A DNA stretch of 64,000 nt from Kaistia dalseonensis (lineage in GTDB: Bacteria > Pseudomonadota > Alphaproteobacteria > Rhizobiales > Kaistiaceae): positions 248,001-312,000 of the forward strand of contig NZ_JAUSVO010000001.1 of assembly GCF_030814715.1 (NCBI RefSeq), read 5' to 3'. How positions within the stretch are numbered: position 1 is the first letter of the stretch; each line of letters opens with the position of its first letter. The translations under genes were made by a program, and so were the position numbers. The notes under the pieces are model-generated. The model was given only the letters and a program-made list of their open reading frames with translations, ran no database searches and had not been told where the DNA came from. Positions 13,708-32,651 of the stretch are shown here, one piece after another.

Positions 13708-13742
13708 CTCTCCGTTGCGTTGGCGTTGCCTGCCGTTGCGTT

Positions 13743-14930
13743 TCAGCGCAGGAACGTGCGCAGCCGGTCGAGCCCGTCCTCGATCTTCTCCGGCGCGGCC
13801 GCGAAGCACCAGCGCAGCCAGCCATCGCCCTCAGGCCCGAAGGCGCTTCCCGGCGCCAGGCCGAGGCCGACCTTCTCGACGAGACCGCGCGCGAGCTCCA
13901 TGCAGTCCGGCCGGCCCTCGATCCGGAAGAATGTGTACATCGCACCATCCGCCTCAGGCACATCCACCGAACCGAGCGCGCGCAGCCCGTCGACGAGGAG
14001 CGCGCGCGAGCGGGCGAGGTCGGCGCGGAAGCGAAGCACCTCGTCCTCGCTGCGGGGATCGCTGACCGCGGCGATCGCGGCATGCTGGGTGAAGTCGGGA
14101 ATGCAGGAGGTATTATATTCGATGACCTTGGCGAGATCGTCCATGATCGCCGTCGGCGCAGTGATCCAGCCGACGCGCCAGCCGGTCATGCGCCAGGCCT
14201 TCGAGAAGCTGTTGACGACGATCAGCCGGTCCTCGGGATCGGCGAGGCTCAGCATGGACGGCGCGGCATTGAGGCCGGGCCGGAAGACGATCCGCTCATA
14301 GACATCGTCCGAGAGGATCCAGATGCCATGGCGCCGGCAATGGGCGAAAAGAGCGGCCTGGTCCTCGGCCTCGATCGTCCAGCCCGTCGGGTTGTTGGGC
14401 GAGTTGACGATCAACATGCGGGTATCCGGCGTCAGTTCCTCGATCAGCCGTTCGACGTCGAGGCGCCAGCGGCCATTCTCGATAACGAGGGAGTGGCGGA
14501 CCACGTCGGCGCCCATGATCTTCGGGATCTCGGCGATGTTCGGCCAGATCGGCGTGACGACGACGACGCGGTCGCCGGGCGAGACGATCAATTGCGAGGT
14601 CAGCATCAGGCCTGAATCGCCGGAGGCGACGGCCGCAACGCGGCCTTCGTCGATCGAAATCCCGTGCAGGGCGCTGCTATAGCGGGCAATGGCGCTCCGC
14701 AGCGCCGGGCGGCCGAGATTCTGGCTGTAGAAGGTCTCATGCCGTCGCAGCGAGGCGATGCCGGCCTCGGTGATGAAATCGGGGGTCGGCTGGTCGCTTT
14801 CGCCGAACCAGAACGCGGCCATGTCCCGCCGTCCCATGGCGGCATTGGCGATGACGCGAATGCGGGAGGCGGCCAGCGCGCCGATGGCGGGGCGGGCGGT
14901 CGGCGGGAAGGCGGAAGTCTCACGCGTCAT
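13743..14930 (-). CDS. Class I/II pyridoxal-phosphate aminotransferase
   Basis: Aspartate-aminotransferase-fold enzyme of 395 residues. PLP-binding residues are seen in SGDSGLMLTSQLIV, VVTPIWPNI, the NSPNNPTGW loop, ILSDDVYERIVF and the Schiff-base Lys in VNSFSKAWRMTGWRVGWI. The C-terminal substrate-carboxylate Arg lies in LRWCFAA. I chose the ATG at 14930, which has GGAG 6 bp upstream, over a longer frame back to 14990. It follows the solute-binding protein gene in the same direction but beyond a strong hairpin. The amino donor is not determinable. Confidence 0.9.
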   Translation of the reverse strand: MTRETSAFPPTARPAIGALAASRIRVIANAAMGRRDMAAFWFGESDQPTPDFITEAGIASLRRHETFYSQNLGRPALRSAIARYSSALHGISIDEGRVAAVASGDSGLMLTSQLIVSPGDRVVVVTPIWPNIAEIPKIMGADVVRHSLVIENGRWRLDVERLIEELTPDTRMLIVNSPNNPTGWTIEAEDQAALFAHCRRHGIWILSDDVYERIVFRPGLNAAPSMLSLADPEDRLIVVNSFSKAWRMTGWRVGWITAPTAIMDDLAKVIEYNTSCIPDFTQHAAIAAVSDPRSEDEVLRFRADLARSRALLVDGLRALGSVDVPEADGAMYTFFRIEGRPDCMELARGLVEKVGLGLAPGSAFGPEGDGWLRWCFAAAPEKIEDGLDRLRTFLR

Positions 14931-14950
14931 TCGGGATCTCCAGATATCAG

Positions 14951-14978
14951 GAGGGGCCGGTCGTCCGACCGGCCCCTC
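14951..14978 (-). terminator. Strong hairpin after the DUF917/peptide-ABC operon
   Basis: GAGGGGCCGGTCG and CGACCGGCCCCTC form a perfect inverted repeat, with an effective 12-bp stem and 4-base loop. It lies 29 bp past the stop of the solute-binding protein gene and just upstream of the aminotransferase. No T-tract follows, so read-through is possible. Confidence 0.55.
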
Positions 14979-15006
14979 GCTCTTTGGCATTGGCTGCGTC
15001 GGGCGA

Positions 15007-16584
15007 TCAGCCCTTGCTGCAATCCCACCAGAAGTTCGAGAAATTCAGGTCCCAGCTCATCATCGGCACCCACTGGTAGCCCTGCAAGCACTTGTTCGCC
15101 GCATAACGCTGCGATTCCGCGAGCATATAGACATCGCTCTGCCGGTCGACCAGCTTCTGCTGCAGATCCTTGTAGATCGCGTTCTGCGCCGGCACATCCG
15201 TCGTCTCGCGGGCCTTGTCGATCAGCGCGTCGATCTCCGGATCTTCCAGCCACTCCATCGACGACCAGGTGCCCTTGGCCTTGGAATGATACTGGACGTA
15301 GAAGATGCTGTCCGGCGAGGGATAGGTGGCGCCGTTGAAGACCTGCGTCGTGTTCGGCGTGGTCTCGGGCTTGGCGGCGAGCTCGGTGATGCGGTTCCAG
15401 GGCTCGGGCTGCAGCGCGACCTCGAAGCCGATCTGCTCGAGGTTCGACTTGAACATCAGGCCAATCTCATCCTCGAAGCCGAGGCCGGCGACATAGGCGT
15501 GGCTGATCTTGATGGGCTCCTGGCCGGCATATTTCGACAGCGCGACTTCGGCCTTGGCCTTTTCGAGATCGAAGACCGGCGCGGAGAGCGTGTCGAGATA
15601 GGCGCCCTTGAAGGTCGAGGCGAGCGGGCCGTTCAGCGGTGCGCCCGGGAAGATCACGTTGCGGATCGTGTCATAGTCCATGGCGAGCGCGATCGCGCGG
15701 CGGATATGGACGTCGTCGGTCGGCGCCAGCTTGCTGTTCAGCTTGATATAGAAGCCGGTCGAGGTGGCGTGCTCGAGGATCTTGTAGTTCGGCAGCGCGC
15801 CAATCGCGTCGAAGGTGGCGCTGGTCAGCGTCGAGGAGGAGAGGCCGAGTTCGCCGGTCTGGGCGAGCGCCTTGGCGGTGGCGTCGTCCGAGGTGATGAC
15901 GAAGCGGATCTCGTCGATCGGCGTGCCCTTGGTCCAGCCGCCATGATAGCCCTCGTAACGGCCGATCACGAGTTCCGAGCCGCGGGTGTTCTTGATCAGC
16001 TTGTACGGACCGGCGCCTGCGGTGGCGTCCGAGAGATAGGCCTCGCCCCAGGTGTCCTTGCTGTTCGCCTTGACCAGCTTTTCATTGACCACGAGGATCA
16101 GCGGCGTCGATGCGATGAACGGCGCATAGACCTTGTTCAGCGTGATCTCGACCGTCTGCGGATCGATCGCCTTGACGCTCTCCGGGCCGATCAGGCCGGC
16201 GAACAGATAGGACGGGCCTTCATTGAGCGCGAGCAGGCGTTGGAGCGAATAGACGACGTCGGAGGCCTGCACCGGGGTGCCGTCCTGGAAGGTGGCGCCG
16301 GGCTTCAGCTTGAAGGTGTAGGTCTTGTTGTCGGGCGAGACGGTCCAGCTCTCGGCGAGCTGCGGGATGATCGTGCCGTCCGGTGCGACGGTGGTGAGCC
16401 CGTCATAGAGGTTCACCGCGGCCATGTAGCTCGTATAGTCGGTGACCTTGGCCGGATCGATCGTGCCGAAGATCTGCGTCGCATTGACCGTGATCGCAAC
16501 CTTCTCGGCGGCGAGCGCGGGCGGGGTCAGGCTGGCGGTGCAGGCGAGGGCGAAGAGCCCTGCCGCAAGAAGCGTCTTTCTCAT
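15007..16584 (-). CDS. ABC transporter solute-binding protein, family 5 (peptide/nickel type)
   Basis: Periplasmic receptor of 525 residues for the ABC importer encoded upstream in the same operon. The N-terminus is a signal peptide (MRKTLLAAGLFALACTASL, cleavage after ALA). The mature part has SBP_bac_5 features such as LYDGLTTVAPDGTIIPQLAES, KTYTFKLKPGATFQDGTPV and ARDVVYSLQR-like ASDVVYSLQRLL. The ATG at 16584 is chosen because AAAGGAG lies 8 bp upstream and the signal peptide starts there. It is the last gene of the operon, an unusual position for the receptor. The substrate is unknown, and the hydantoinase/DUF917 neighbours suggest a cyclic amide or peptide-like compound. Confidence 0.9.
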   Translation of the reverse strand: MRKTLLAAGLFALACTASLTPPALAAEKVAITVNATQIFGTIDPAKVTDYTSYMAAVNLYDGLTTVAPDGTIIPQLAESWTVSPDNKTYTFKLKPGATFQDGTPVQASDVVYSLQRLLALNEGPSYLFAGLIGPESVKAIDPQTVEITLNKVYAPFIASTPLILVVNEKLVKANSKDTWGEAYLSDATAGAGPYKLIKNTRGSELVIGRYEGYHGGWTKGTPIDEIRFVITSDDATAKALAQTGELGLSSSTLTSATFDAIGALPNYKILEHATSTGFYIKLNSKLAPTDDVHIRRAIALAMDYDTIRNVIFPGAPLNGPLASTFKGAYLDTLSAPVFDLEKAKAEVALSKYAGQEPIKISHAYVAGLGFEDEIGLMFKSNLEQIGFEVALQPEPWNRITELAAKPETTPNTTQVFNGATYPSPDSIFYVQYHSKAKGTWSSMEWLEDPEIDALIDKARETTDVPAQNAIYKDLQQKLVDRQSDVYMLAESQRYAANKCLQGYQWVPMMSWDLNFSNFWWDCSKG

Positions 16585-16649
16585 CGTCGATTCTCCTTTG
16601 GTTCCCCGGTTTGCGGGAGTCATTGTCATTGTCTGGAAGGCAGTTGACG

Positions 16650-17738
16650 TCAGGGATGCAGGGCTTCGACCGGCGTGAACGGGTGGTCGTAGCCGAAGTA
16701 TTTCGGGCCCACGAGATCGAGGCCGGCCGGCGTGCGCCATTGCGGATTGGCGGGCAGGCCGATGAACGAGACCGCGAGGCCGAAGCGGAGCTGTTCGGTG
16801 GTGACGGGCAGGCCGCCATCGGCGTCGAGCGCGCAGATCAGGTCCGGCGTGGTCGCGAGCAGGCGGCCTTCGCCATCCTTTGCGACCAGGAACTCGTTCT
16901 GGAAGTCGATCGAGAAGGTCCGTCCCGCATAGGCGTCGACGCCCTTGAAGATCGCCTTGCCGCGGGCAAAGCCGCCCGTGGTCGCCCGCTCGATGTCGGT
17001 CACGCGGCCGGTGAAGAGCTTGCGGCCGTCGAAGCGCCTGGTCAGCACGTCGCCCGGGTGGCGCTTGGCGTCGCGCTCCGACTTGATCGTCTCGCCGACA
17101 CCCTTGATGAGCGAGAGCGTGTCGTGCAGCAGCCCGACCTTCATCTGCGCGCCGGTCATGGGGTAGGAGGCGATCAGCGCCGCCCCGCCCATCTGCACCG
17201 TCTGCGCGCGGGCGAGCCGTTCCGTCCACAGATTGGAGACGGTGTTCAGGATCGAGGTGTTGCCCTTCTCGTCGGCGAGCACCAGCGGCGTCGCCTTGAT
17301 GCCGTGCATGGTCAGGCTGACCATCTGCAGCTCCGGGAAGGCCCGGCCCATGCCGTCGCCATCGATCAGCGGCAGGCCCGTCGCGGCCGCGACCGCGAAG
17401 GGAATGGTCGAGTTGAGGCCGCCGGCCTCGATGCAGATCAGCGCATCGGCCTTCTTGCCGAGGAAGCGCTCCAACTGGCGCAGCGCTTCCAGCGCCTCGT
17501 CGCCGCGCGGCAGCTTTTCCAGCATGACCGTCGGCGCACCCATCATGGCGACCGGCACGCAGAGCGCGTCATCCGCCACATCCATCGGCGAGATCACCGT
17601 GACGGGGCCGTGCTCGCGGATCGCCTGCTGCGCCATCAGCTTGCCGATATAGGGATCGCCGCCGCCGCCGGTTCCGAGGAAGGCACCACCGAGCGCGATG
17701 GCGTCCATGTCCTCGGCGTTGATCAGAACGCTGCTCAT
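16650..17738 (-). CDS. DUF917 (S-methyl thiohydantoin desulfurase-type) protein, copy 1
   Basis: A 362-residue cytosolic protein of the DUF917 family, whose N-terminal domain is now named after S-methyl-thiohydantoin desulfurase. It has the glycine-rich ALGGAFLGTGGGGDPYIGK near residue 15-33, DGDGMGRAFPELQM near 128, and a C-terminal beta domain (FARGKAIFKGVDAYAG, then DLICALDADGG). The ATG at 17738 has GAGGA upstream. It lies 10 bp after a related DUF917 gene. The two share the LGTGGGG, PYIGKL and DGMGRAFPE cores but differ elsewhere, so they may form a hetero-oligomer or have different substrates. The reaction here is not known. Confidence 0.85.
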   Translation of the reverse strand: MSSVLINAEDMDAIALGGAFLGTGGGGDPYIGKLMAQQAIREHGPVTVISPMDVADDALCVPVAMMGAPTVMLEKLPRGDEALEALRQLERFLGKKADALICIEAGGLNSTIPFAVAAATGLPLIDGDGMGRAFPELQMVSLTMHGIKATPLVLADEKGNTSILNTVSNLWTERLARAQTVQMGGAALIASYPMTGAQMKVGLLHDTLSLIKGVGETIKSERDAKRHPGDVLTRRFDGRKLFTGRVTDIERATTGGFARGKAIFKGVDAYAGRTFSIDFQNEFLVAKDGEGRLLATTPDLICALDADGGLPVTTEQLRFGLAVSFIGLPANPQWRTPAGLDLVGPKYFGYDHPFTPVEALHP

Positions 17739-17748
17739 TGTCCGTTCC

Positions 17749-18864
17749 TCAATTCTCGGCCATCGGGCGATAGATCATGTCGTGGAAGCCGAAGGCCTTG
17801 GGGCCGACGACTTCGAGCGCCGCCGGTGTCCGCATCAGCGGATGGCAGGGCAGCGCCAGGATCGCGACGCGCTGGCCATAGCGCAGCATTTCCGTCGTGA
17901 TGGCCGTGCCGGTGTCGATGTCGAGCACGATGATCAGGTCGGGGACGACGACTTCCATCTCGCCATTGCGGTGGAAGACGAGGTTCTCGTTCTGGATCAG
18001 GACGGAAGCCTCGTCGCCGGCATAGGCATCGAAGCCCGTCAGCAACGCTTCGCCGAACACGAAGCCGCCGCGCATATGCCGCTTCAGGTCCGTGATCTTG
18101 CCGCTGAAGATCCGGCGGCCGCCTTCCTGCTCGCAGATCGCCGCGATCGGATCGGCATGGGTCCGCTGCGCTTCAAGTACCGCGCGGCCGAGCGCGACCG
18201 CGTGGGTATAGGCGTGCGGAATGCCGAATTTCTTGACGAAGGCCCCGCTCATCGGTGCGCTGGCCAGCGTCGACGCGCCGCCCTGCGAAACGACCAGCGC
18301 GCGCGCCATGCGCTCGTGCCAGAGTTCCGAGGCGGCATGGTCGAAGATCACGACATTGCCGTGCAGGTCGCACATGACGCTCGGCGTCGAGCGATGGCCA
18401 TAGATCGAATAGGTCGTCATCTGCATTTCGGGGAAGGCGCGGCCCATGCCGTCGCAATCGACCACCGGGAGGCCCGCCTGCGCGGCCGCGATCAGCGGCT
18501 CCATCGCATTGGCGCCGCCGATTTCCTCGCAGCCGATCGCGTCGATCTTGATCTGCAGCCGCTCTTCCAGCGCGCGGATGCAGCGCACGCCCTCGCGGCC
18601 TTCCTTGATGCGCTCATAGGCCACGAGCGGGGCGCCGATGCCGCCGAGCGAGACGACCTTCGCCTCATCCGGCACCGCGTCGAGCGGCAGGATGGAGAGC
18701 TTGTGGCCGTTGCGGATCGCCTCGCGGGCGCGGAGCTTGCCGATATAGGGATTGCCGCCGCCGCCCGTGCCGAGGATCGCCGCGCCGACTTCGAGCGCGT
18801 CGAGATCGGCCTCGGTCAGCACCCACAACTTTTCATTGTCGATCAGTGCGCTCGCATCAGACAT
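17749..18864 (-). CDS. DUF917 (S-methyl thiohydantoin desulfurase-type) protein, copy 2
   Basis: A 371-residue DUF917 protein and tandem paralogue of the next gene downstream. The cores are VGAAILGTGGGGNPYIGKL (about residue 26-44), CEEIGGANAMEPL, DCDGMGRAFPEMQM, and the C-terminal MRGGFVFGEALLTGFDAYAG and LIIVLDIDTG. The ATG at 18864 (MSDASALIDNEK) overlaps the stop of the hydantoinase gene by 8 bp, indicating coupling, and was preferred over a longer frame inside that gene. DUF917 genes commonly sit beside hydantoinase/oxoprolinase genes, and the pair may act on the same ring-opened or cyclic intermediate. Confidence 0.85.
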   Translation of the reverse strand: MSDASALIDNEKLWVLTEADLDALEVGAAILGTGGGGNPYIGKLRAREAIRNGHKLSILPLDAVPDEAKVVSLGGIGAPLVAYERIKEGREGVRCIRALEERLQIKIDAIGCEEIGGANAMEPLIAAAQAGLPVVDCDGMGRAFPEMQMTTYSIYGHRSTPSVMCDLHGNVVIFDHAASELWHERMARALVVSQGGASTLASAPMSGAFVKKFGIPHAYTHAVALGRAVLEAQRTHADPIAAICEQEGGRRIFSGKITDLKRHMRGGFVFGEALLTGFDAYAGDEASVLIQNENLVFHRNGEMEVVVPDLIIVLDIDTGTAITTEMLRYGQRVAILALPCHPLMRTPAALEVVGPKAFGFHDMIYRPMAEN

Positions 18865-20416
18865 GGGTGCCGCCCATCTCGCCCACGACCTTGACGTGGA
18901 TGCGCGTGGCATTGCCGGGCAGGTAGGCGAGCGGCACGTCTTCGCGTTCGAGAACCTGGATGGTCTCCAGCACCGCGCCGGCGGCGATCGCCTTGCCGGT
19001 CGCCTCTTCCTCCGCCTGCTTCAGGCAGATTTCGCGCGTCAGGCCGTTTTCGAGCGCATAGACGCGGTCGACCTCGCCGGAGATCTGCGCGATCGCGGCA
19101 CCGACCGCGTTGGCGACGGCGAAGTTTTCCGGCCGGATGACGGTCAGGTCGCCGAGCTTGTCGGGCATGAGGATCGAGCCGCCGCCGACCGCGATCACGG
19201 GGATCAGGTCGGGCGAGATGCGGCTGCGCTCCACCGAGGTTTCGAGCAGGCGCACGATTTCGGCCAGCGCGGCTTCGACGAGCGCGCGGTCGACATTCGC
19301 AACGCGCGAGGCATCGCCGACATCGGCCTTGCCGAGCGCGACGGCTATATCGGTCGCCGTCAGCGTCTCGCCGCCGAAGACCATGGCTTCCTTGGTAATC
19401 CGGTAGCCGACCGATTGCGGGCCGACCGTGACCTTGCCCGAGGGCGCCGTCCGCACCAGCGAGCCGCCGCCGAGGCCGATCGAGAACACGTCGGGCATGC
19501 GGAAATTGGTGCGCACGCCGCCAATGTCGACGACCGTCGCCGCCTGGCGCGGGAAGCCCAGATGCAGCGCGCCGACATCTGACGTGGTGCCGCCGATATC
19601 GACGACGATTGCTTCCTTGACGCCGGTCAGGAAGGCGGCGCCGCGCATCGAATTGGTCGGGCCGGAGGCGAAGGTCAGCACCGGGAAGGCCTTGACCGTC
19701 TCGGCCCCCATCAGCGTGCCGTCATTCTGCGTGATGTAGAACGGGCAGGAGAGGCCGGCATCCTTGAGCGCCTTGGCGAAGGCGTCGACGGTGCGGGTCG
19801 AAAGCGAGAGCAGGCTCGCATTCATGATCGCGGCGCTTTCGCGCTCGAGCAGGCCGATGCGGCCAATATCGCTCGAGAGCGTCACGGGCAGGTCGCAGCG
19901 CGCCTCGATGATCGCCTTGGCGCGCTCTTCCATCGCGCGGTTGATCGGACCGAAGACGGAGGTGATCGCGACGGCCTTCATGCCCTTGGCGTTGATGTCG
20001 CCGGCGATGCGCTCGATCTCGGCCTCGTCGAGGGGCGCGATCGGGTTGCCGTCGAACTCGTAGCCGCCGCGGACGAGGTAGCCATTATAGCCGACGGCCT
20101 CGCGCAGATCCTCGGGCCAGTCGACCATGGGCGGCAGGCACGCGGTCGCCGGCAGGCCGAGCCGGATCGCGGCGACGGGGTTCAGATGCTTGCGCTCGAT
20201 CACGGCATTGGTGAAATGCGTCGTGCCGATCATGACATTCGAGATCTTCGACCGGTCGATGCCGGCCTTTTCGATTGCGCCTTCCAGCGCCTCGATCACG
20301 CCCGACGTGACGTCCTCGGTCGTCGATGCCTTGACGCCGGCCAGAACCGTCGAGCCCTGCATGACCACGGCATCGGTATTCGTGCCGCCAACGTCTATTC
20401 CCAAACGGTACAACAA
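18857..20416 (-). CDS. Hydantoinase/oxoprolinase-family ATP-dependent amidohydrolase (HyuA-like, short form)
   Basis: A 519-residue member of the ASKHA-fold HyuA/5-oxoprolinase family, which hydrolyses cyclic amides such as hydantoins or 5-oxoproline with ATP. The phosphate-1 loop is LGIDVGGTNTDAVVM at the N-terminus. Further marks are MIGTTHFTNAVIER, NASLLSLSTRT, ITQNDGTLM, LTFASGPTNSMRGAAFL, VDIGGTTSDVG and the late VGGGS. It lacks the extra 150-200 residues of long HyuA proteins and has no HyuB partner nearby. Instead two DUF917 proteins follow. The start is TTG with AAGGAG about 7-10 bp upstream. Confidence 0.9.
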   Translation of the reverse strand: MLYRLGIDVGGTNTDAVVMQGSTVLAGVKASTTEDVTSGVIEALEGAIEKAGIDRSKISNVMIGTTHFTNAVIERKHLNPVAAIRLGLPATACLPPMVDWPEDLREAVGYNGYLVRGGYEFDGNPIAPLDEAEIERIAGDINAKGMKAVAITSVFGPINRAMEERAKAIIEARCDLPVTLSSDIGRIGLLERESAAIMNASLLSLSTRTVDAFAKALKDAGLSCPFYITQNDGTLMGAETVKAFPVLTFASGPTNSMRGAAFLTGVKEAIVVDIGGTTSDVGALHLGFPRQAATVVDIGGVRTNFRMPDVFSIGLGGGSLVRTAPSGKVTVGPQSVGYRITKEAMVFGGETLTATDIAVALGKADVGDASRVANVDRALVEAALAEIVRLLETSVERSRISPDLIPVIAVGGGSILMPDKLGDLTVIRPENFAVANAVGAAIAQISGEVDRVYALENGLTREICLKQAEEEATGKAIAAGAVLETIQVLEREDVPLAYLPGNATRIHVKVVGEMGGTHV

Positions 20417-20437: not shown

Positions 20438-22108
20438 TCAGCCCGCTTGGCGGACCAGGAAACGTTCTCTTTCTTCGCGTGTGACTTGGGGCTTCTCGCG
20501 CTCTTCCGCGTCGCTCATGACGGGGATCGCGGCGATCAGGGCCTTGGTATAGGGGTGCTCGGGCGCGGCGAAGACCTTGGCCGGCGTGCCTTCCTCGACG
20601 ATCTCGCCCTTCAGCATGATGGCGATGCGCGAGCAGAAATTGCGCATCAGCGAGAGATCGTGGGAGATGAACAGATAGGTGAGGCCAAGCTCGTCGCGCA
20701 GCTTCTGCAAAAGCGCGATGACGTTCTTCTGCACTGAGACGTCGAGCGCCGAGGTCGGCTCGTCGAGCACCAGGATGCGCGGATTGGCGGCGAGCGCGCG
20801 GGCGATGGCGACGCGCTGCTTCTGCCCGCCGGAAAGCTCGTGCGGATATTTGTCGAGATAGGCGGCCGGCAGGTCGACCTGGCGCAGCAACTCGATCATG
20901 CGGGCCTGGCGCGCGGCACGGTCGAGGCCGGAATGGACCAGCGGCACGGACAGCGTCTGCGCCACGCTGCGCTTGGGATTGAGCGAGGTTCCGGGGTTCT
21001 GGTAGACGATCTGGATCGGGCGCAGGCGCGACGCCATCTGCTCGGGCGAAATCGCGACGTCGATCGTGCCGGAGGAGGGCGCGATCATGCCCATGATCAT
21101 GCGCGCCACCGTCGTCTTGCCGGAGCCGCTCTCGCCGGCGAGGCCGAACACCTCGCCCTCGGCGATCGAGAGGTTCACATCCTTGACGGCGTGATGCTTG
21201 CGGCCGCGGCCGAAGAAGCTCTTCTCCTCGAAGATCTTGTCGACGCCCCTAACCGTGATGATCGGCTTGCCGCCGGAGAGCGGCTGGTCCACGACCCGGG
21301 GGCCATAGAGCGTCGGGATCGCGTCGATCAGCGCGCGGGTATAGTCCTTCTTGGGTGCAGTCAGGATCTCGTCGATCGAGCCGGTCTCGACGATCTCGCC
21401 CTTGCGCATCACATAGATCTGGTCGGCGGTCTGACGCACCACGCCGAGATTATGCGTGATCATCAGGAGCGACAGGCCGTTCTCGTCGACGAGGCGGTTG
21501 ATCAGCTTGATGATCTCGTCCTGCGTCGTGACGTCGAGCGCGGTGCCGGGCTCGTCGGCGATCAAGAGCTTGGGTTGATGCAGCAGGGCGAGCGCGATCA
21601 GCACGCGCTGGCGCATGCCGCCGGAGAGCTGCGAGGGATAGGCGTTGAAGACGCGTTCGGGATCGTCGAGCTGCACCTGGCGCAGCACCTCGAAGATGCG
21701 CGCCTGCCGTTCCCGGGCGCCCGACGCGCGGTTCAGGCGCTGGTCGGCGTAATACATCACGTCGTCGAGGTGCCGGCCGATGCGGAACACCGGATTAAAC
21801 GACGAGAGCGGGTCCTGCATGATGATCGAGAAGGCGGTGCCCTTCAGCGCCTCGCGCTCGCCCGGCGACATCGAGAAGAGCTGGTAGCCGTCATAGGCGA
21901 TCGAGCCGCCCTCGACGGTCGCGTTCTCCGGCAGCGTGCCAAGGATCGCCTTGGCGGTGACGGATTTGCCGGAGCCGGATTCGCCGATCAGGGCGACGCG
22001 CTGGCCCTTCTCGATCGAGAGCGACACGTCCTTCAGCGCATGGAAGCGGCGGCCATAGGTCGTGAAGCCGACATTGAGCTTGTCGAGGCTGAGAAGCGGA
22101 ACGGCCAC
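20438..22108 (-). CDS. Fused double ATPase of a peptide/nickel-type ABC importer
   Basis: Cytosolic ATP-binding subunit of about 556 residues combining DppD- and DppF-like halves. Half 1 has Walker A GESGSGKSVTAKAIL, signature LSGGMRQRVLIALAL and Walker B LLIADEPGTALD. Half 2 has GESGSGKTTVARMI, ELSGGQKQRVAIARAL and ILVLDEPTSALD, each with the oligopeptide C-terminal extension. The GTG at 22108 lies 4 bp after the permease stop with GGAG upstream. An in-frame ATG at 22126 is an alternative start. It powers the two permeases encoded directly upstream. Confidence 0.93.
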   Translation of the reverse strand: MAVPLLSLDKLNVGFTTYGRRFHALKDVSLSIEKGQRVALIGESGSGKSVTAKAILGTLPENATVEGGSIAYDGYQLFSMSPGEREALKGTAFSIIMQDPLSSFNPVFRIGRHLDDVMYYADQRLNRASGARERQARIFEVLRQVQLDDPERVFNAYPSQLSGGMRQRVLIALALLHQPKLLIADEPGTALDVTTQDEIIKLINRLVDENGLSLLMITHNLGVVRQTADQIYVMRKGEIVETGSIDEILTAPKKDYTRALIDAIPTLYGPRVVDQPLSGGKPIITVRGVDKIFEEKSFFGRGRKHHAVKDVNLSIAEGEVFGLAGESGSGKTTVARMIMGMIAPSSGTIDVAISPEQMASRLRPIQIVYQNPGTSLNPKRSVAQTLSVPLVHSGLDRAARQARMIELLRQVDLPAAYLDKYPHELSGGQKQRVAIARALAANPRILVLDEPTSALDVSVQKNVIALLQKLRDELGLTYLFISHDLSLMRNFCSRIAIMLKGEIVEEGTPAKVFAAPEHPYTKALIAAIPVMSDAEEREKPQVTREERERFLVRQAG

Positions 22109-22112
22109 GGGC

Positions 22113-23003
22113 TCAGGTCTCCACATCGAACATGTCGCGGAGGCCGTCACCGAGCAGGTTGAAGCCGAGCGTCGCGTAGAAGATCGCCATGCCGGGGGCG
22201 AGGACTTCCCACCATTTCTCCGGCAGGAACTGGCGGCTCTCGGCGATCATCGAGCCGAGATCGGGCGTCGGCGGCTGTACGCCGAGGCCGAGGAAGGAGA
22301 GCGTCGCGCCGAACATGATCACGAAGGCCGCGTCGAGCGTCGTCTTGACCGAGATGACCGAGATGCAGTTCGGCAGGATCTCGCGGGTCAGGATGTGGAA
22401 GTGGCTGGCGCCGGAGAGCCGCGCCGCCTCGATGAAATCCTCGACCGCCACGGATTTCGCCACGCGATAGACGAGGCGGGCATGCCAGGTCCACCAGAGC
22501 ACGGTGATCGCGAGCATGGCGTTGACGAGGTTCGGCTCCAGCACATTGCCGACGGCGAGCGCCATGACGAGCGGCGGGATCGCCAGCATCACATTGGTGA
22601 AGCCGGAGATGAAGCGCTCGACCGGACCCTTGAAATAGCCGGCGAGCAGGCCGAGCGTGACGCCGATCGGCACCGAAATGCCGAGCACGCCGACGACCAG
22701 CAGCAGCGAGACACGGAAGCCGAACAAGACGCGCGTGAAGATATCGCGACCGGCCTTGTCGGTGCCGAACCAGTGCAGCGCATCGGGCGGCAGGTGGCGG
22801 GCGCGGAAATCGACCACGGCGCCGACATGCTTGGGATAGGTCGCGAGCAGGGGCGCGAAGATCGCGATCAGAACGACGGAGACGACGATGATCGTGCCGA
22901 TGATCGCGGCTGGGTTCCGGCTGAAGCGGTACCACGTCATGTAGCGCGCGGTCAGCGCCGGTGCGTCGGTGGCCTCGACGATGGAAATGTCCTCGACCGA
23001 CAT
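22113..23003 (-). CDS. ABC importer permease, DppC-like
   Basis: Inner-membrane permease of 296 residues with the N-terminal OppC-type segment, about six helices and the BPD_transp_1 fold. The ATPase-coupling EAA loop is seen as EAARLSGASHFHILTREILPN. Other family marks are HWFGTDKAGRDIFTRVLFG and SFLGLGVQPPTPDLGSMIAE. The start ATG overlaps the DppB-like stop (TGATG), so translation is coupled. It forms the channel together with the upstream permease. Confidence 0.94.
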   Translation of the reverse strand: MSVEDISIVEATDAPALTARYMTWYRFSRNPAAIIGTIIVVSVVLIAIFAPLLATYPKHVGAVVDFRARHLPPDALHWFGTDKAGRDIFTRVLFGFRVSLLLVVGVLGISVPIGVTLGLLAGYFKGPVERFISGFTNVMLAIPPLVMALAVGNVLEPNLVNAMLAITVLWWTWHARLVYRVAKSVAVEDFIEAARLSGASHFHILTREILPNCISVISVKTTLDAAFVIMFGATLSFLGLGVQPPTPDLGSMIAESRQFLPEKWWEVLAPGMAIFYATLGFNLLGDGLRDMFDVET

Positions 23004-24031
23004 CAGCGTGCCTCCCTGAGGCGCAGCCGTGGATCGAGCAGGGTCAGGATCACGTCGATCACCAGATTGGCGACCACGAAGAAGCAGCCGGAGACGAGCA
23101 CCACCGCCATCACGGCATTGAGGTCCTTCTGCATGATGGCGGAGAGGCCGTAGGAGGCGAAGCCGCCCCAGGAAAACACCATTTCCACGACGAAGGCGTT
23201 GCCGATCAGCGAGGCGAATTCGAGCCCGAGAATGGTGAGCGGCGCGATCGAGGAGAGCTTGAGCAGATAGCGGAACACGATCACCCGCGTCGGCACGCCG
23301 AAGGAGCGCAGCGTCAGCACGTGATCCTTGCGCTGGTTCTCGATCATGGCCGAGCGCGTGATGCGCGTGATCTGGCCGATGGAGGCGAGGGCGAGCGCCA
23401 GCGTCGGCAGCGTCAGGTATTTGAGCGCGGCCAGGAAGACATCGGGCCGGCCATGCACGATCGAATCGATCAGATAGAGCCCGGTCGGCCCCGTCGGCGG
23501 CGCGAGATTGTAATCCATGCGGCCGAGGATCGGCCAGCCGGGCACGAAGCGCGCCACGAAGAGCTGCAGCAGCACCGCGAACAGGAAGCCCGGCATGGTG
23601 ACGCCGACCAGCGAGAAGAAGCGGCCGAGATGGTCGATCCAGCCATTGCGATAGCGCGCGGTCAGCACGCCCAGCGGAATAGACACCGCGAAGACGAGGA
23701 TGACGGTCGCGAGCACGAGTTCCAGCGTCGCGGGCAGGAAGGTGGCGAGGTCGTCGCGGACGGGCTTGTGCGAGAGCAGGGATTCGCCGAGGTCGCCGTG
23801 CAGGACCTTGCCGATATAGGTGAAATACTGGCCGATCAGCGGCTCGTCGAGGCCCATGCTGATCCGCATCGCATCGACCTGCTCCTGCGTGGCGCGGGGG
23901 CCGAGGGCGATGCGCGCCGGGTCGCCGGGCACCACGCGGGCGAGCACGAAGATGATCAGTGAAAGGACGAAGAGGACGAGAACGAAACCCGCAATGCGTC
24001 GGAGAAAGAGTTCGATCATTCCGGCGTTCAT
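23003..24031 (-). CDS. ABC importer permease, DppB-like; first gene of the operon
   Basis: Inner-membrane permease of 342 residues with the DppB/OppB N-terminal signature RIAGFVLVLFVLSLIIFVLARVVPGDPAR, whose core is VVPGDPAR, and MGLDEPLIGQYFTYIGKVLHGDLGESL-type sequence after it. The EAA-like loop is seen around LTLRSFGVPTRVIVFRYLLK. The ATG at 24031 (MNAGMIELF) is chosen, with an internal ATG at 24019 possible. A much longer frame runs upstream but carries the promoter region. Promoter-proximal direct repeats lie 120-150 bp upstream. Confidence 0.93.
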   Translation of the reverse strand: MNAGMIELFLRRIAGFVLVLFVLSLIIFVLARVVPGDPARIALGPRATQEQVDAMRISMGLDEPLIGQYFTYIGKVLHGDLGESLLSHKPVRDDLATFLPATLELVLATVILVFAVSIPLGVLTARYRNGWIDHLGRFFSLVGVTMPGFLFAVLLQLFVARFVPGWPILGRMDYNLAPPTGPTGLYLIDSIVHGRPDVFLAALKYLTLPTLALALASIGQITRITRSAMIENQRKDHVLTLRSFGVPTRVIVFRYLLKLSSIAPLTILGLEFASLIGNAFVVEMVFSWGGFASYGLSAIMQKDLNAVMAVVLVSGCFFVVANLVIDVILTLLDPRLRLREAR

Positions 24032-24151
24032 CGGTTGGGCTCGACCTTCCGTTTCTTCAATCCGGATCGGATCGCCGCCGAAAGAGGCACCGACCGTCCC
24101 TGCCTCCCTAGAAGGCCCCATATGAGGCCGCGCCCTCAAGGCGACAGACGG

Positions 24152-24182
24152 CTAGGTTTTGGAGAAATCAGTCTAGGTTTTG
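24152..24182. promoter_or_regulatory. Direct repeat CTAGGTTTTG x2, 21-bp period: candidate LuxR operator
   Basis: CTAGGTTTTG occurs at 24152-24161 and again at 24173-24182. The starts are exactly 21 bp (two helical turns) apart, on the same face of DNA. The pair lies between the MalT-like regulator gene (stop at 24198) and the permease start at 24031, so it fits an activator site for the ABC/DUF917 operon. MalT-type LuxR activators are known to bind short asymmetric repeats. Confidence 0.55.
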
Positions 24183-24197: not shown

Positions 24198-26642
24198 TCA
24201 GGCGATGAGGCGGAGGGCGCGGGCGGCGGCGATCGCCTCGCGGCGGCCGGTGCAGCCGAGCTTGCGATAGAGATTGGAGAGGTGAAACTTCACCGTGGCC
24301 TCGCTGATGCCGAGGTGGCGGGCGACGAACTTGTTCGAGCCGCCCTCGGCGATCAGCAGCAGGACGCGCGTCTCGCGCCGCGACAGGCCGGCGGTATTGG
24401 CCGAGGAGGTCGTGGTCGGCGCGTCGATCGCATCGAGGCGACGCGCGACCTGCCGCGCCATGGGCGAGGATTGCAGGAATTCGCTGACGCGCTTGTCGTC
24501 GATCATCTCCTTGAGGAAGACCATTTCCTCCATCAGCGGCGCGATGCAGGCGAGCCGCGCCGCCTCCTCATAGGCCTTGAGCAGCGTGGCGCGCGCATTG
24601 GTCAGGTCGCGCTGGCGGCGTGCGACATAGGCGCTCCAGACGAGGAGCGCGATCTTCTGCCGCCGCGTGACGTGATCGTTGATCTGCAATGCCGCGATCT
24701 GGCTCTGCAATTCCCGCCGCATCGGCACCTCATGCACGAGATGGCGCAGCCAGGAGAGGACGAGCGCCAGTTCGTCATGGTCGGCGACGCGGACGAGCTG
24801 GTCGACGGCGGCCTCGACCCAGGTCCGGTTGATGCGCGACTGCAGGACGGAGAGCTTTTCCGCCGCCTCCAGCCAGCGATTGACGTTCTGCAGGATCGCC
24901 GCTTCCCGCATCTCGATCATCATGCGAAACCGGCGGCTCTGCCATTGCTGGATGCGCCAGAGTTCGAGGAAGCTCCGCGCGGCAAAGGTGGAGAGGTGCC
25001 GGCTCAGTGTCTGGCTGCCATAATGGATCGCGAATTCGGCGAGGCTCGGCCAGATCTCGCCCATGGCGAAATGATCGAGATCGTCGCTGAGGAAGACGGC
25101 CAGTTGCTCGATATTGCCATCCTCATAGGCGATGCAGGCCTCGAGCAGGATGAGGATGCGCCGGTCGGACGGGCTCTCGAAGGGAAGCTTCGCCATGCTG
25201 GCGCGGGCGGCGTCTGTGTTCGGGCGTGCCTGCCGGACATTCCCCTGCATCAGCGCGATCGCCGCCAGGAAGATGTGGATGTAGAAGACGAGGAGATGCG
25301 CGTCGATCTGGCGATAGCTGACGAGCGCCCGCTCCGCGATCCCCTCCGCCTCGGCGAAGCGCCGCCGCCGGACATAGATTTCAAGTACGGAATTGTAGAA
25401 CGTGCCGCGGCGCTGGTGATCATGCACCGGCAGCTCGGCCAATATGCCGAAGATCTGTTCGAGCGTCCGGTCCGAGATCGTGACCTCCTCATAGATCATC
25501 GTGATCAGGCGGAAGCAGCGAAAGGCTAGGCTGAACTCGGAATCCGGCGCGAAGACCTTGGTGAGGCTATGGGCATTGGGACCGAAGCGCTCGGTGATCA
25601 GCAGGCGCGCGCGGGGCAGGTTGCCGCTCTTCAGCGCCTGCAGGGCGAGGCTGAAGACCAGCACGTCGCTCTCGCGGGCCAACTCGTCGGGAAAGCCGGC
25701 GAGGACGCGGTCGAAGGCCTCATAGCCGTAATAGTAGATGTAGTTGAACCCGTGCGCCTCGGTGAACCAGTCGAGGGCGAGGCTGTGGAGCCCGGCCTGC
25801 TGCAGCGTGTTGATCGCCTCGGTGATCTGCCCGCCGGAGCGGAAGATTTCCGCGCGCGCTTCGGCCTGCGTCGCCTTTCCCGTCCGCTTCATCGCGGCCG
25901 CAACCGCGCTGGCGAGCTCGTGCCGGATCGAGGGAATGCCGAGGCTGTAGCCCGTGCCCTCTGTGTCGGTCCGCACGATCGGCGCCAGCCGCGCGAATTC
26001 CGCCGCGACGGTCGGGTCCGGAGCTGCGAAGGTGACGGGGCCAGCCGCATGGACCAGCATGTCGAGCGCCGCGAGCGTGCGTGGATCGAGCTCGGCCAGG
26101 ATCTCCGCTTCGAGAAAGGCTGGAAGCGCGGCGGCCCGGCGGCCCGCGTCGGCGGGCGGCGCGCAGAGGACGGCCCAGCCGGCCGTCAACGCGAGGGGCA
26201 ATCCGGTGGCTTCCATGCCGTCAAACGACGGCTCGTCCGGCCGCAGCGCGAGGGCGCCAAAGTCGAGGATCACGGCCTTGCCGTAGAGCACGGCCCGATC
26301 GAGGCCGGCGAGCGCCGCGCCGGGCCGTTTCGCGACCAGCGCTCGCCGTCTCGGCTGAGCCTCGACCCAGGCGAAGAGCGCTTCGCTTTCGGCCTCGGTG
26401 GGTGCATGCCGGGAGAGGTCCCAGAGCAGTATTTCCGTGCCGTCGGGCAGGGTGGCGGGCAGGGGCCCGGTATGAAGCGGCTGGCCGAGCCGGTGCGCCA
26501 GGGCCGACAGCAGCGTGGTCTTGCCCGTGCCGGCGATCGCGCTCAGCACCACGACGCTCTCGGGTCGCGCGAGGAGACCGTCCGCAAGCGTCGGCCGGGC
26601 CAGCGGCGATGTCGAAGGGCGCGGGAAGGCGTGTGTCGTCAT
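24198..26642 (-). CDS. MalT-like LuxR-family ATP-dependent transcriptional activator
   Basis: Large STAND-type regulator of about 814 residues. The N-terminal NTPase has a Walker A in LSAIAGTGKTTLLSAL (about residue 37-52). A long helical, TPR-like middle section (about 300-730) would receive the effector. A C-terminal LuxR helix-turn-helix reads LSRRETRVLLLIAEGGSNK then HLGISEATVKFHLSNLYRKL. MalT homologues are inducer- and ATP-dependent activators. The gene precedes the peptide-ABC/DUF917 operon on the same strand with 166 bp between. The ATG at 26642 was chosen; an ATG at 26651 is also possible. Confidence 0.88.
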   Translation of the reverse strand: MTTHAFPRPSTSPLARPTLADGLLARPESVVVLSAIAGTGKTTLLSALAHRLGQPLHTGPLPATLPDGTEILLWDLSRHAPTEAESEALFAWVEAQPRRRALVAKRPGAALAGLDRAVLYGKAVILDFGALALRPDEPSFDGMEATGLPLALTAGWAVLCAPPADAGRRAAALPAFLEAEILAELDPRTLAALDMLVHAAGPVTFAAPDPTVAAEFARLAPIVRTDTEGTGYSLGIPSIRHELASAVAAAMKRTGKATQAEARAEIFRSGGQITEAINTLQQAGLHSLALDWFTEAHGFNYIYYYGYEAFDRVLAGFPDELARESDVLVFSLALQALKSGNLPRARLLITERFGPNAHSLTKVFAPDSEFSLAFRCFRLITMIYEEVTISDRTLEQIFGILAELPVHDHQRRGTFYNSVLEIYVRRRRFAEAEGIAERALVSYRQIDAHLLVFYIHIFLAAIALMQGNVRQARPNTDAARASMAKLPFESPSDRRILILLEACIAYEDGNIEQLAVFLSDDLDHFAMGEIWPSLAEFAIHYGSQTLSRHLSTFAARSFLELWRIQQWQSRRFRMMIEMREAAILQNVNRWLEAAEKLSVLQSRINRTWVEAAVDQLVRVADHDELALVLSWLRHLVHEVPMRRELQSQIAALQINDHVTRRQKIALLVWSAYVARRQRDLTNARATLLKAYEEAARLACIAPLMEEMVFLKEMIDDKRVSEFLQSSPMARQVARRLDAIDAPTTTSSANTAGLSRRETRVLLLIAEGGSNKFVARHLGISEATVKFHLSNLYRKLGCTGRREAIAAARALRLIA

Positions 26643-26668
26643 GCCCGCCATATAGGACAAGAAAGCGG

Positions 26669-26710: not shown

Positions 26711-28027
26711 TCAGTCCTTCAGGAACAGCTCGATGACCGGCACGGTCACGTTCGGCTTCTTGACCGGCAGTTCGAGCGTCAGCGTATCGGCCGCGATCCG
26801 CACGCCGACATTGCTGTCGACCGGGGCGTGCGGATCGATCCAGCGCACTTCGCTGGCATCGTGCAGGAGCTGGGCATAGGCGACCTTGCCGCCGAGGCCG
26901 GGAATGTGCAGATGCGCGAAGGGCCAGTTGAAGACATGGACATAGAGGCGATTGCCACGCTGCGTCAGCCGGCAGTCCTTCGGTGCCACATAGTCGGAGG
27001 CGCCGGCACCGTAGATGGCGCGGCCATGCAGGCGGAGCCATTCGCCATAAACGTCGAGTGCCGCGATCGCGCGATGATCGAACGTGCCGCGCGCCGTCGG
27101 ACCGACATTCATGAGCAGGTTGCCGCCGAGCGCCACCGCGTCGACCAGGATCTGCACGAGCTGTTCAGGGCTCTTCCAGCTTTCCTCGTCGCGATAATAG
27201 CCCCAGGAGCCGGAGAAGGTGTGGCAGCCCTCCCAGGTCGCCTTTTCCCCGTGAATGACGGGCCAGGACTGCGGGACATATTGTTCGGGCGTGGTCACGT
27301 CGGGCAATTCGCCCGTCGCATTGATCAGGTCGAGGCGGTTGTTGACGATGATATCGGGCTGCAGCTCGCGCACGAGCCTGAGCAGTTCCTCGCTCTGCCA
27401 ATCCTCGCGGCCCTTGCCGGCGAGGCCGTTATAGGGCCGGTCGGGATAGGAGAAATCGAACCAGATGACATCGATCTTGCCGTAGCCCGTCAGCAGTTCG
27501 CGCACCTGGTCTCGCATATAGGCGGCATAGCGCGTGACGTCGCGGCCTTTATTGAACGCGTCCGGATCGCGGTTGCGCTCGGGGTGGAAGATATCCGCCT
27601 TGAAGTCGGGATGATGCCAGTCGATCAGCGAATAATAGAAGCCGATCTTGAGCCCCTCGGCGCGGAACGCCGCGACATATTCCGCCACCAGATCGCGCCC
27701 GCCCGGCGTGTTGGTCGCCTTGTAGTCGGTGACCTTCGAATCCCAGAGGCAGAAGCCTTCATGATGCTTGGCGGTCAGCACGACATATTTCATGCCGGCG
27801 GCCTTGGCCCGCCGCGCCCATTCCCTGGCGTCGTAAAGGTCGGGGTCGAAATGGTCGAAATATTTCTGGTAGTCGACGTTCGAGATTTCCTCGCGGCTCT
27901 TCACCCATTCGTGCCGCGCGGCGAGGCTGTAGAGCCCCCAATGGATGAACATGCCGAAGCGGTCGTGGAGGAACCACGCCTTCTTCTCCGGCGGCAGGAA
28001 CAGGCTGTCTGGCACGGGCGCGTTCAT
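26711..28027 (-). CDS. Alpha-L-fucosidase, glycoside hydrolase family 29
   Basis: A 438-residue retaining exo-fucosidase expected to release L-fucose from glycans or glycosides. The family pattern is clear: WFLHDRFGMFIHWGLYSLAARHEW, YVVLTAKHHEGFCLWDSKVTD, and the nucleophile Asp in YGKIDVIWFDFSYP, with GYYRDEESWKSPEQLVQILVDAV and GGNLLMNVGPTARG later. No signal peptide is present, so it probably acts in the cytosol on imported oligosaccharides. The ATG at 28027 was chosen, 28 bp after the aldo/keto reductase stop. It is last in the fuconate-dehydratase operon, which supports fucose use. Confidence 0.93.
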   Translation of the reverse strand: MNAPVPDSLFLPPEKKAWFLHDRFGMFIHWGLYSLAARHEWVKSREEISNVDYQKYFDHFDPDLYDAREWARRAKAAGMKYVVLTAKHHEGFCLWDSKVTDYKATNTPGGRDLVAEYVAAFRAEGLKIGFYYSLIDWHHPDFKADIFHPERNRDPDAFNKGRDVTRYAAYMRDQVRELLTGYGKIDVIWFDFSYPDRPYNGLAGKGREDWQSEELLRLVRELQPDIIVNNRLDLINATGELPDVTTPEQYVPQSWPVIHGEKATWEGCHTFSGSWGYYRDEESWKSPEQLVQILVDAVALGGNLLMNVGPTARGTFDHRAIAALDVYGEWLRLHGRAIYGAGASDYVAPKDCRLTQRGNRLYVHVFNWPFAHLHIPGLGGKVAYAQLLHDASEVRWIDPHAPVDSNVGVRIAADTLTLELPVKKPNVTVPVIELFLKD

Positions 28028-28055
28028 GAGATCACTCGCTGTTCGCGTCTGCCGA

Positions 28056-29069
28056 TCAGCGCGGTGCCAGATCGGCGGCGAGCAGGCCTTCCGCCACCAG
28101 ATCCGCCCAGAGCGCATCAGGGATGACGACGTCCATCGAGGCGAGGTTGCGATCGAGGTTGCGCTTGTTGCTGACGCCGAGCAGCACGCTGGCGACAGCC
28201 GGGTTGCTCAGCGGGAAGCGCTGGGCTGCGGCGGCGAGCGGCACATCATGGCGGGCGCAGACCGCCTGCAGGCGGCGCACGCGCTCGACGATCTCGGCCG
28301 GCGGTTCGGCGTAATTATAGTGCGCGCCCGGGACCGGGCCGGTGGCGAGGATGCCCGAATTGAACACGCCGCCAATGACGAGGCTGGCGCCGCGCGCGAG
28401 GCAGGCGGCGATCAGCGGCCGTGCGGCTTCCTGCTCCAGCAGCGTGAAGCGGCCGGCGAGCAGGAACGCGTCGAGATCGGCATGGTCGAGCGCGCGGAGG
28501 CAGACCTCGACCTCGTTGACGCCGAGGCCGATCGCCTTGACGTCGCCCGCCGCGCGAAGCTCCTGCATCGCCTTCAGGCCGCCGGAAAACGCGACGGGCT
28601 CATATTCGGCGTTCTGTGCCTCGCCATGCGTGTCGGTGCCGATATCGTGCATGTAGAGCACGTCGATGCGGTCGAGCCCGAGGCGGTGCAGGCTCGCCTC
28701 GTGCGAGCGCATGATGCCATCATAGGAATAGTCGTATTCCTGCTCGAAGGGCAGCACGTCGACGAAGCCGTAATCGCCCATGACGCGGCCGCGCAGCGGG
28801 GTCAGGATGCGCCCGACCTTGGTCGAGAGCACATAGCTGTCGCGCGGCTTGTCGCGGAGGAAATCGCCGAGACGGCGCTCGGAGAGGCCGTGGCCATAGC
28901 GCGGCGCGGTATCGAAGAAGCGGATGCCGGCGTCCCACGCCGCCTGCAGCGTCTCGTGAGCGGCCTGGTTGGTCACCGCCTGGTAGAGATTGCCGATGCT
29001 GGCGCCGCCGAAGCTGAGCGCGGTGACGTCGAGGCCGGTGCGGCCGAGGGGGCGTGTTGCAATCGTCAT
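28056..29069 (-). CDS. Aldo/keto reductase, probable L-fucose (D-threo-aldose) 1-dehydrogenase
   Basis: NAD(P)-dependent enzyme of 337 residues with the TIM-barrel AKR fold. Catalytic residues are seen as Asp and Tyr in RFFDTAPRYGHGLSE, Lys in VLSTKVGRIL and His in VLYMHDIGTDTHG. Members of this subgroup oxidise L-fucose or L-galactose at C1. The location between fuconate dehydratase and fucosidase supports oxidation of L-fucose to L-fucono-lactone. The ATG at 29069 is one base past the dehydratase stop, so the genes are tightly coupled. Confidence 0.88.
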   Translation of the reverse strand: MTIATRPLGRTGLDVTALSFGGASIGNLYQAVTNQAAHETLQAAWDAGIRFFDTAPRYGHGLSERRLGDFLRDKPRDSYVLSTKVGRILTPLRGRVMGDYGFVDVLPFEQEYDYSYDGIMRSHEASLHRLGLDRIDVLYMHDIGTDTHGEAQNAEYEPVAFSGGLKAMQELRAAGDVKAIGLGVNEVEVCLRALDHADLDAFLLAGRFTLLEQEAARPLIAACLARGASLVIGGVFNSGILATGPVPGAHYNYAEPPAEIVERVRRLQAVCARHDVPLAAAAQRFPLSNPAVASVLLGVSNKRNLDRNLASMDVVIPDALWADLVAEGLLAADLAPR

Positions 29070-29070
29070 G

Positions 29071-30348
29071 TCAGCCTCGAAACTCGTTGTTGGCAATCGA
29101 AGCCGGCTTCATCTCGATCGAGAAGCCGGGACGCTGGGGCGGCATGTAGGCCGCATGGCGGATGTCGCAGGGGTCGATGAAATGTTCGTGCAGATGATCG
29201 ACATATTCGATCACCCGGCCATCCTTGGTGCCGGAGACGACCAGATAGTCGATCATGGAGAGGTGCTGGACATATTCGCAGAGGCCGACGCCGCCGGCAT
29301 GCGGCCAGACGGGCCGGCCATATTTCGCCGCCATCAGCAGGACGGCGAAGACCTCGTTCAGCCCGCCGATGCGGCAGGCGTCGATCTGGACGATGTCGAT
29401 CGCGCCTTCCATGATGAACTGCTTGAAGAGGGTGCGGTTCTGGCACATCTCGCCGGTCGCGACCTTCACCGGCGCCACGCCCGCGCGGATGCGGCGATGG
29501 CCGGCGACGTCGTCGGGGCTCGTCGGCTCCTCGATGAAATAGGGATTGGCGAAACGGAGCTTGCCGACCCAGTCGATCGCCTGCTCGACTTCCCAGACCT
29601 GGTTGGCGTCGATCATCAGGAAGCGGTCGGGCCCCATGACCTCGCGCACGGCCTTTAGCCGGCGAATATCATCGTCGAGGTCGCGGCCGACCTTCATCTT
29701 GATGTGGGTGAAGCCGGCATCGACCGCCTCCTGTGCGAGGCGCCGCAATTTCTCGTCGGAATAACCGAGCCATCCGGCCGAGGTGGTGTAGCAAGGATAG
29801 CCCTCGGCGAGCAGCCTGGCCTTGCGCTCCGCCTTGCGGGCGCTCGCCTTGGTGAGCAGGTCCAGCGCCTCGTCCGGCGTGATGCAATCGGTCAGGTAGC
29901 GGAAATCGACGATCCGGACGAGTTCCTCCGGGCTCATGTCGGCGACGAACTGCCAGACCGGCTTGCCGGCCTCCTTCGCCATCAGGTCCCAGAGCGCGTT
30001 GACGACGGCGCCGGTCGCCAGATGCATCGCGCCCTTGTCCGGCCCGATCCAGCGCAGCTGGCTGTCGCCGGTCAGATGGTGCCAGGCGCGGCCGGGATTC
30101 TCGCGCACCCAATCCATGTCGAGGCCGACGACCAGGTGGCGCATGGCGCGAATGGCGGCGCAGCAGACATCATTGCCGCGGCCGATGGTGAAGGTCAGGC
30201 CGTGTCCTTCGAGGCCGTCGCGATCCGTGACGAGGATGACGTAAGCCGCCGAATAATCGGGATCCGGATTCATCGCATCCGAGCCATCGAGCGATTGCGA
30301 TGTCGGGAAGCGGAGATCATGGACGCGAATGTCGACGATGCGGGTCAT
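29071..30348 (-). CDS. L-fuconate dehydratase (enolase superfamily)
   Basis: A 425-residue mandelate-racemase-group enzyme that dehydrates L-fuconate to 2-keto-3-deoxy-L-fuconate. It matches L-fuconate dehydratases along its length, for example VHDLRFPTSQSLDGSDAMNP, GLTFTIGRGNDV and WHHLTGDSQLRWIGPDKGA. Barrel catalytic elements include the KMKVGRDL lysine motif (FTHIKMKVG), metal ligands in FLMIDANQVW, IEEPTSPDD and ATGEMCQNR, and the His in VWPHAGGVGLCEYVQH. The start is ATG at 30348. It is first in the three-gene fucose operon and divergent from the IclR regulator. Confidence 0.93.
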   Translation of the reverse strand: MTRIVDIRVHDLRFPTSQSLDGSDAMNPDPDYSAAYVILVTDRDGLEGHGLTFTIGRGNDVCCAAIRAMRHLVVGLDMDWVRENPGRAWHHLTGDSQLRWIGPDKGAMHLATGAVVNALWDLMAKEAGKPVWQFVADMSPEELVRIVDFRYLTDCITPDEALDLLTKASARKAERKARLLAEGYPCYTTSAGWLGYSDEKLRRLAQEAVDAGFTHIKMKVGRDLDDDIRRLKAVREVMGPDRFLMIDANQVWEVEQAIDWVGKLRFANPYFIEEPTSPDDVAGHRRIRAGVAPVKVATGEMCQNRTLFKQFIMEGAIDIVQIDACRIGGLNEVFAVLLMAAKYGRPVWPHAGGVGLCEYVQHLSMIDYLVVSGTKDGRVIEYVDHLHEHFIDPCDIRHAAYMPPQRPGFSIEMKPASIANNEFRG

Positions 30349-31483: not shown

Positions 31484-31498
31484 CCGTTACGGCGATCA

Positions 31499-31535
31499 TC
31501 GCCCTCCGTCCGCATCGAGAGCGGGGGGAGGGCGA
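31499..31535. terminator. Candidate bidirectional terminator between convergent genes
   Basis: TCGCCCTCC (31499-31507) and GGAGGGCGA (31527-31535) form a 9-bp stem with a 19-base loop. It lies between the IclR stop (31483) and the end of the aldo/keto reductase (31557). There is no T-tract on either side. Confidence 0.4.
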
Positions 31536-31556
31536 CGATCGATCGCCCTGGGGTGG

Positions 31557-32588: not shown

Positions 32589-32651
32589 GATCATATCCTC
32601 CCAGGGATTGGACAGAAGCGACGGGGGCGGAGCCCCCATCGAAGGGGCGCG

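Follow-up and report, generated by a model that had tools for sequence, protein, structure and literature searches.

A direct-repeat pair at 21-bp spacing as the probable operator of a MalT-related LuxR-type regulator at a hydantoinase-DUF917 operon of Kaistia dalseonensis

The MalT box reads GGGGAT/GAGG. MalT itself, the STAND/LAL maltose activator of E. coli, is described as oligomerising and then interacting cooperatively with several MalT sites (PMC10427625). Another member of the LuxR family, Streptomyces MilO, is reported to regulate its own pathway positively and to recognise asymmetric direct repeats; it differs from the case described below in that its repeats, three of 11 bp with 2-nt spacers, are placed 142 bp before the start site and belong to an antibiotic cluster of an actinomycete (PMC11784345). 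Here we describe a putative operator in the window, by which we mean the whole 64,000-nucleotide stretch of DNA that was analysed. The neighbouring regulator shares with MalT a C-terminal LuxR-type HTH, a place as regulator of transport and catabolic genes, and 631 alignable columns: hhalign comparison of our alignment A2 with E. coli MalT gave 98.7% probability at E 4.7e-16, from profile position 113 on, a span that excludes the P-loop. The system differs from that of MalT in its boxes, AAAACCTATACC, which are unlike the MalT box, in having both boxes upstream of the -35 at 21-bp steps, and in its target genes.

All genes of the locus are on the minus strand. The regulator gene (24198..26660) is followed by an operon in the order dppB-dppC-dppDF-hyuA-DUF917, then a second DUF917 gene and genes for a family-5 binding protein and an aminotransferase, to 13743. 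The first gene encodes a dppB-like ABC permease (23003..24031), with its ATG start at 24031 or 24019 as judged against the Ensifer annotation. Next come the genes for a dppC-like ABC permease (22113..23003), a fused dppD/F-like ABC ATPase (20438..22150, start uncertain), a hydantoinase/oxoprolinase-family protein, HyuA (18857..20416), and two DUF917 (S-Me-THD-like) proteins (17749..18912 and 16650..17738), the first of which falls below the NCBIfam cut-offs of two named desulfurases. The substrate-binding protein (15007..16602, start uncertain) and a class I/II aminotransferase (13743..14990) complete the series; the aminotransferase gene starts 16 bp past the binding-protein gene and, from its position, is probably the last of the operon. 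Our guess is that the transporter imports a cyclic amide, e.g., a hydantoin or oxoproline relative. At two of the related loci considered below, operon genes appear split between frames (hyuA, dppDF and DUF917 at L024 1932-6286; dppB at L023 11343-12383), reflecting either sequencing error or decay.

The 10-mer CTAGGTTTTG occurs on the plus strand at 24152-24161 and again at 24173-24182, between the regulator gene and dppB. The starts are 21 bp apart, i.e., two helix turns, just as the earlier note had reported in plus-strand letters. Read in the direction of the operon, on the minus strand, the repeat is two copies of CAAAACCTAG. The conserved columns define a distal box, CAAAACCTAGACT (24170..24182, minus strand, read 24182-24170), and, 21 bp from it, a proximal box, CAAAACCTAGCC (24150..24161, minus strand, read 24161-24150); the columns of both are kept in 24 loci. 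The further claim that such a repeat is unlikely by chance proved overstated. Nine separate exact repeats of at least 10 bases at 10-40 bp spacing are present in the 64-kb window, the CTAGGTTTTG pair included, and when the 166 bp from the LuxR stop to the likely dppB start were shuffled with dinucleotide content kept, 81 of 20,000 shuffled sequences contained such an exact repeat, so that the argument from chance is by itself of moderate weight. Another window repeat, CCGTTGCGTT at 13712-13742, is likewise an exact 10-mer repeat at 21 bp and lies immediately past the aminotransferase stop. Single copies of CTAGGTTTTG with up to two mismatches number 13 in the window versus 11.7 expected; loose single boxes are therefore uninformative, and it is the exact pair that is notable. 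With up to three mismatches allowed, the 5.18-Mb own genome has no second pair at 21 bp, and a reversed-pattern control gave 0. The case for the site is carried by its conservation rather than by the chance argument.

Relatives of the regulator were sought in several samples. At a threshold of E 1e-30 none was present in the 13 other genomes of the genus searched, and 12 plasmid records had one; at 1e-40, 15 of 397 genomes of the order did, the own genome included. We compared 26 loci, each with a regulator relative: 15 from genomes and 11 from plasmid records, the second record of Rhizobium sp. AB2/73 (H6) being left out of the 12. One Devosia locus (L017) came from a scan of genome contigs and, by its length and coordinates, is identical to the G201 contig; the operons of G290 and G317 start in L042 and L043, respectively. 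Regulator and operon occur together at 23 of the 26 loci, across Hyphomicrobiales and Rhodobacterales.

Comparison of the orthologous gaps, the check that the earlier note had named, showed the pair kept at 24 of these 26 loci, always at 21 bp. A regular expression for the half-site, with 18-25 bp spacing permitted, found 15 pairs, every one at 21 bp. A leave-one-out weight matrix recovered the pair at seven more loci (L027-L033), and additional upstream DNA at two more (L042 and L043). At 23 loci the pair precedes the matching operon, before either dppB or the binding-protein gene and invariably at 21 bp; at L037 the 21-bp pair and a short regulator relative precede a different hydantoinase A/B operon. 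The two loci without a pair are L034, with a regulator and no operon, and L041, with a regulator fragment. At L034 the regulator relative (8926-11379, 33% identity) lies by genes that by eye are GntR-like and enolase-superfamily-like.

Alignment of the 24 loci needs no gaps and gives AAAACCTATACC as the box consensus. The module seen across distant Alphaproteobacteria is thus two AAAACCTATACC boxes spaced by exactly 21 bp and followed, after another 21 bp, by a -35-like TTG; this TTG occurs in 23 of the 24 loci (L023 is the exception). Among 11 lineages, identity is 79% and 85% in the boxes and 94% in the TTG, versus 29-33% in the spacer and flanks. When weight matrices were built with the whole clade held out (using the 8-kb L043 instead of L026 for that genome), the true site ranked first in 24 of 24 scans, at 24.5-37.1 bits, with runners-up at 11.2 bits or less. 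A partial match of 20.8 bits at L026:7549 has one good half only and lies within a coding stretch. The site is kept above its flanks and co-occurs with the regulator, as expected for the operator of a linked regulator. Such conservation of the boxes between unrelated flanks makes it extremely improbable that the pair is a chance repeat or a leader RNA element (attenuator or terminator), for all that the window holds eight other exact repeats of comparable form. Moreover, the repeats gave no Rfam match, a fold z-score of +0.69 and no terminator-like site, and the putative promoter is downstream of the boxes, so that its transcripts would not include them. An RNA leader was rejected on the Rfam and folding results, and an intrinsic terminator because the sole candidate, at 24033-24046, belongs to the opposite strand.

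The -35-like element of the window, TTGAGG (24134..24139, minus strand), is 21 bp downstream of the proximal box. The TTG at 24139 that the ORF tool proposed as the dppB start is better read as this -35 element. A weak -10 probably lies at 24110..24116 (minus strand), as GCCTTC at 17-bp or CCTTCT at 18-bp spacing. With the 17-bp spacer, position -7 is T in 22 of 24 loci and C in the window and L018; a promoter search found no consensus sigma-70 promoter. With the -10 placed by the alignment, the boxes would be centred near -51 and -71 and transcription would start near 24104. The pair goes with the operon promoter wherever the regulator gene stands, be it in line upstream, divergent, or beyond the far end of the operon. 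Boxes wholly upstream of the -35 in a fixed register are the layout expected of an activator, and here both lie entirely upstream of the -35-like TTG, in a fixed 21-bp register, before a poor promoter. This arrangement makes it unlikely that the LuxR-type regulator uses the pair to repress, or in a dual role, as might be suggested by a Streptomyces LAL protein that the cited part of one study reports as a negative regulator (PMC9628970).

The co-occurrence of site and regulator was followed through whole genomes with a sequence-only model, R1 (49 columns, 16 rows). On the 397 genomes of the order, R1 gave 14 matches of at least 30 bits, found in 14 of the 15 regulator-bearing genomes and in none of the 382 without the regulator, which supports the earlier claim that the repeat links regulator and operon. 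The order and class scans used stricter filters and scored no more than the 15 best candidates in each genome; with that qualifier, the result for the 382 genomes is independent of R1 training. The training rows came from 8 of the 14 matching genomes, and the remaining 6 are close to trained rows. The fifteenth regulator-bearing genome (G396, the source of L034) has a 15.7-bit match only, on a different contig, and six weak matches, none above 19.8 bits, are spread over five order genomes without the regulator. Among 385 genomes sampled from the class, neither the site nor the regulator was found outside the own genome, and the 12 genus genomes scanned have no R1 site.

In all 14 genomes there is exactly one strong R1 match, and it precedes the operon. 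In the own genome, where 150 of 293 candidates were scored, there is one match at E up to 10, and a large regulon was rejected. The earlier note had suggested that the repeat gives a searchable motif for the regulon; by these matches the motif does not lead to a large one. Most likely, to judge from these matches, the MalT-like regulator has one target promoter per genome.

We also considered whether the site goes with the operon by itself. Eleven plasmid records have HyuA at 60% identity or more, and all 11 are among the 12 regulator-bearing records. As a control set we used 6 of the 109 plasmid records with HyuA below 60% identity. None of these six more distant hydantoinase operons has the pair: the weaker half scored at most 4.4 bits, and no true half scored below 9.9. 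Of the seven genus genomes with a HyuA homologue (58%), six were searched with R1 over their full length (G007 was left out), and none has the pair. The operon alone was rejected as carrier on these two results; nine HyuA loci of relatives cover about 4.5 kb each, and there the promoter may fall outside. Four of the six distant plasmid operons (L076-L079, from Aureimonas, Aminobacter, Rhizobium leguminosarum and Novosphingobium) have another LuxR-type regulator; L080 and L081 have no LuxR-type regulator annotated, but a MurR/RpiR gene is present at L080 and a helix-turn-helix regulator of unspecified type at L081. The first four resemble the present locus in having the same kind of regulator by a related hydantoinase-DUF917 operon, and differ in having no AAAACCTATACC pair. 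Our regulator (P0001) is 27% identical to the Aureimonas protein over 694 columns, with 99.9% probability in a profile comparison, and the two of these four regulators placed in the tree are both on a separate branch. The presence of a different large LuxR-type regulator beside these operons suggests that a link to LAL-like regulators may be frequent among operons of this type.

The regulator of the window is 820 aa long, with a C-terminal GerE HTH at residues 759-811 and a putative P-loop, AIAGTGKT, near residue 42. The HTH matches PF00196 at 66.2 bits against a cut-off of 23.5, and so do those of all 18 relatives in the alignment, with E no higher than 0.1. It is the only region above its Pfam cut-off; NTPase (AAA/STAND) and TPR matches fall below the curated cut-offs. 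In alignment A2 the Walker-A-like AIAGTGKT is mostly kept and a GW motif is also visible. Profile positions 5-44 matched the MalT chain 8bob (E 0.0017 over the chain as a whole, with no individual stretch passing by itself), and TPR_MalT matches were obtained for 4 of 18 members, with a best E of 0.0085. AlphaFold2 run on a two-row alignment gave a poor model (mean pLDDT 58), with low-confidence helices through the middle region. The best Foldseek match of that low-confidence model is the STAND-TPR protein 6mfv, the PDB matches being mostly generic helical-repeat and HTH proteins. The HTH above its Pfam cut-off and the MalT profile probability given above support the MalT-like LuxR protein of the earlier note: a LuxR-type HTH protein that is distantly related to MalT, also beyond the HTH. 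The protein is not MalT itself, a reading rejected on an NCBIfam MalT equivalog score of 48.4 bits versus a cut-off of 537. At two loci with the operator pair the P-loop is altered (GTGRT; L023 8998-11256) or absent (the short protein of L037, 8785-10557), and therefore an ATP switch may not be general.

In 21 rows the sequence of the recognition helix is TVKFHLxN; the other three (L022, L040 and L037) have TVKFHLxR. The proximal box has AACCCA in all three Arg rows and in none of the 21 Asn rows, which have AACCTA or AAACTA. L022 and L040 form the sister group of six rhizobial rows within one well-supported clade of the tree; L037 stands elsewhere, on a long branch whose exact place is unsure. 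The Arg rows therefore occupy two places in the tree, and the co-variation represents two events. These changes of box letters with the recognition helix bear on another explanation, that the pair is bound by some other regulator co-inherited with the operon. Whole loci are shared, and co-inheritance alone names no binding protein. Against such a regulator stand the co-variation, the presence of this regulator and the pair before a different hydantoinase operon at L037, and the absence of the pair from more distant operons of the same kind that lack this regulator; we consider it very unlikely.

Taken as sequence evidence, these patterns make it very probable that the two boxes form an operator for the LuxR-type regulator next to them, a distant relative of MalT and of the large ATP-binding (LAL) regulators that would act as an effector-dependent activator. 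We infer binding, activation and effector control along the following lines. A compound linked to the transporter substrate would render the regulator active. The active regulator would assemble, by analogy with MalT, so that its HTH domains occupy both boxes, the C-terminal domains docking on two asymmetric 12-bp sites that are separated by two turns and share one face of the helix. Since the proximal box is two turns upstream of a poor -35 (TTG only), the bound protein could then recruit RNA polymerase to the dpp-hyuA-DUF917 operon. The register (box-21-box-21-TTG) is found across orders, and the operator also at L037 and L023, with their lost or altered P-loops. A tentative and rather doubtful extension is that the subfamily fixes its two DNA-binding domains and RNA polymerase in this one rigid register, and that the geometry comes from a helical arm plus the HTH, not from ATP-driven ring assembly, with the Asn/Arg residue setting the box letter.

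Among the open-access papers listed we found no description of the motif or of the combination of DUF917, LuxR and hydantoinase genes. The matches listed for AACCTATACC include, by title, no bacterial regulator site; one, again by title, concerns the sites of a plant MYB factor (PMC3669277). In the paper listed for AAAACCTA with direct repeat and LuxR, the letters occur in primers. The operator would be new for this regulator subfamily; the kind of activator is already known. The proposal supplies a subfamily of MalT-like regulators with a putative operator, a rule for its spacing and one target. A reporter with the boxes would allow a direct screen for the inducer, and hence for the substrate of the DUF917-hydantoinase operon. 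The system is also compact enough for work on the recognition of direct repeats by STAND-type activators.

Autoregulation through the same boxes was rejected, as the best half-site in the upstream region of the regulator gene scores -2.9 bits. The nearest upstream gene is 50 bp away on the same strand, and the regulator might therefore be co-transcribed with it. Directly upstream of the regulator, at 26711-33602 of the window, are an alpha-L-fucosidase gene and likely sugar-catabolism genes, by eye an aldo/keto reductase, an enolase-superfamily and a nucleoside-hydrolase-like gene.
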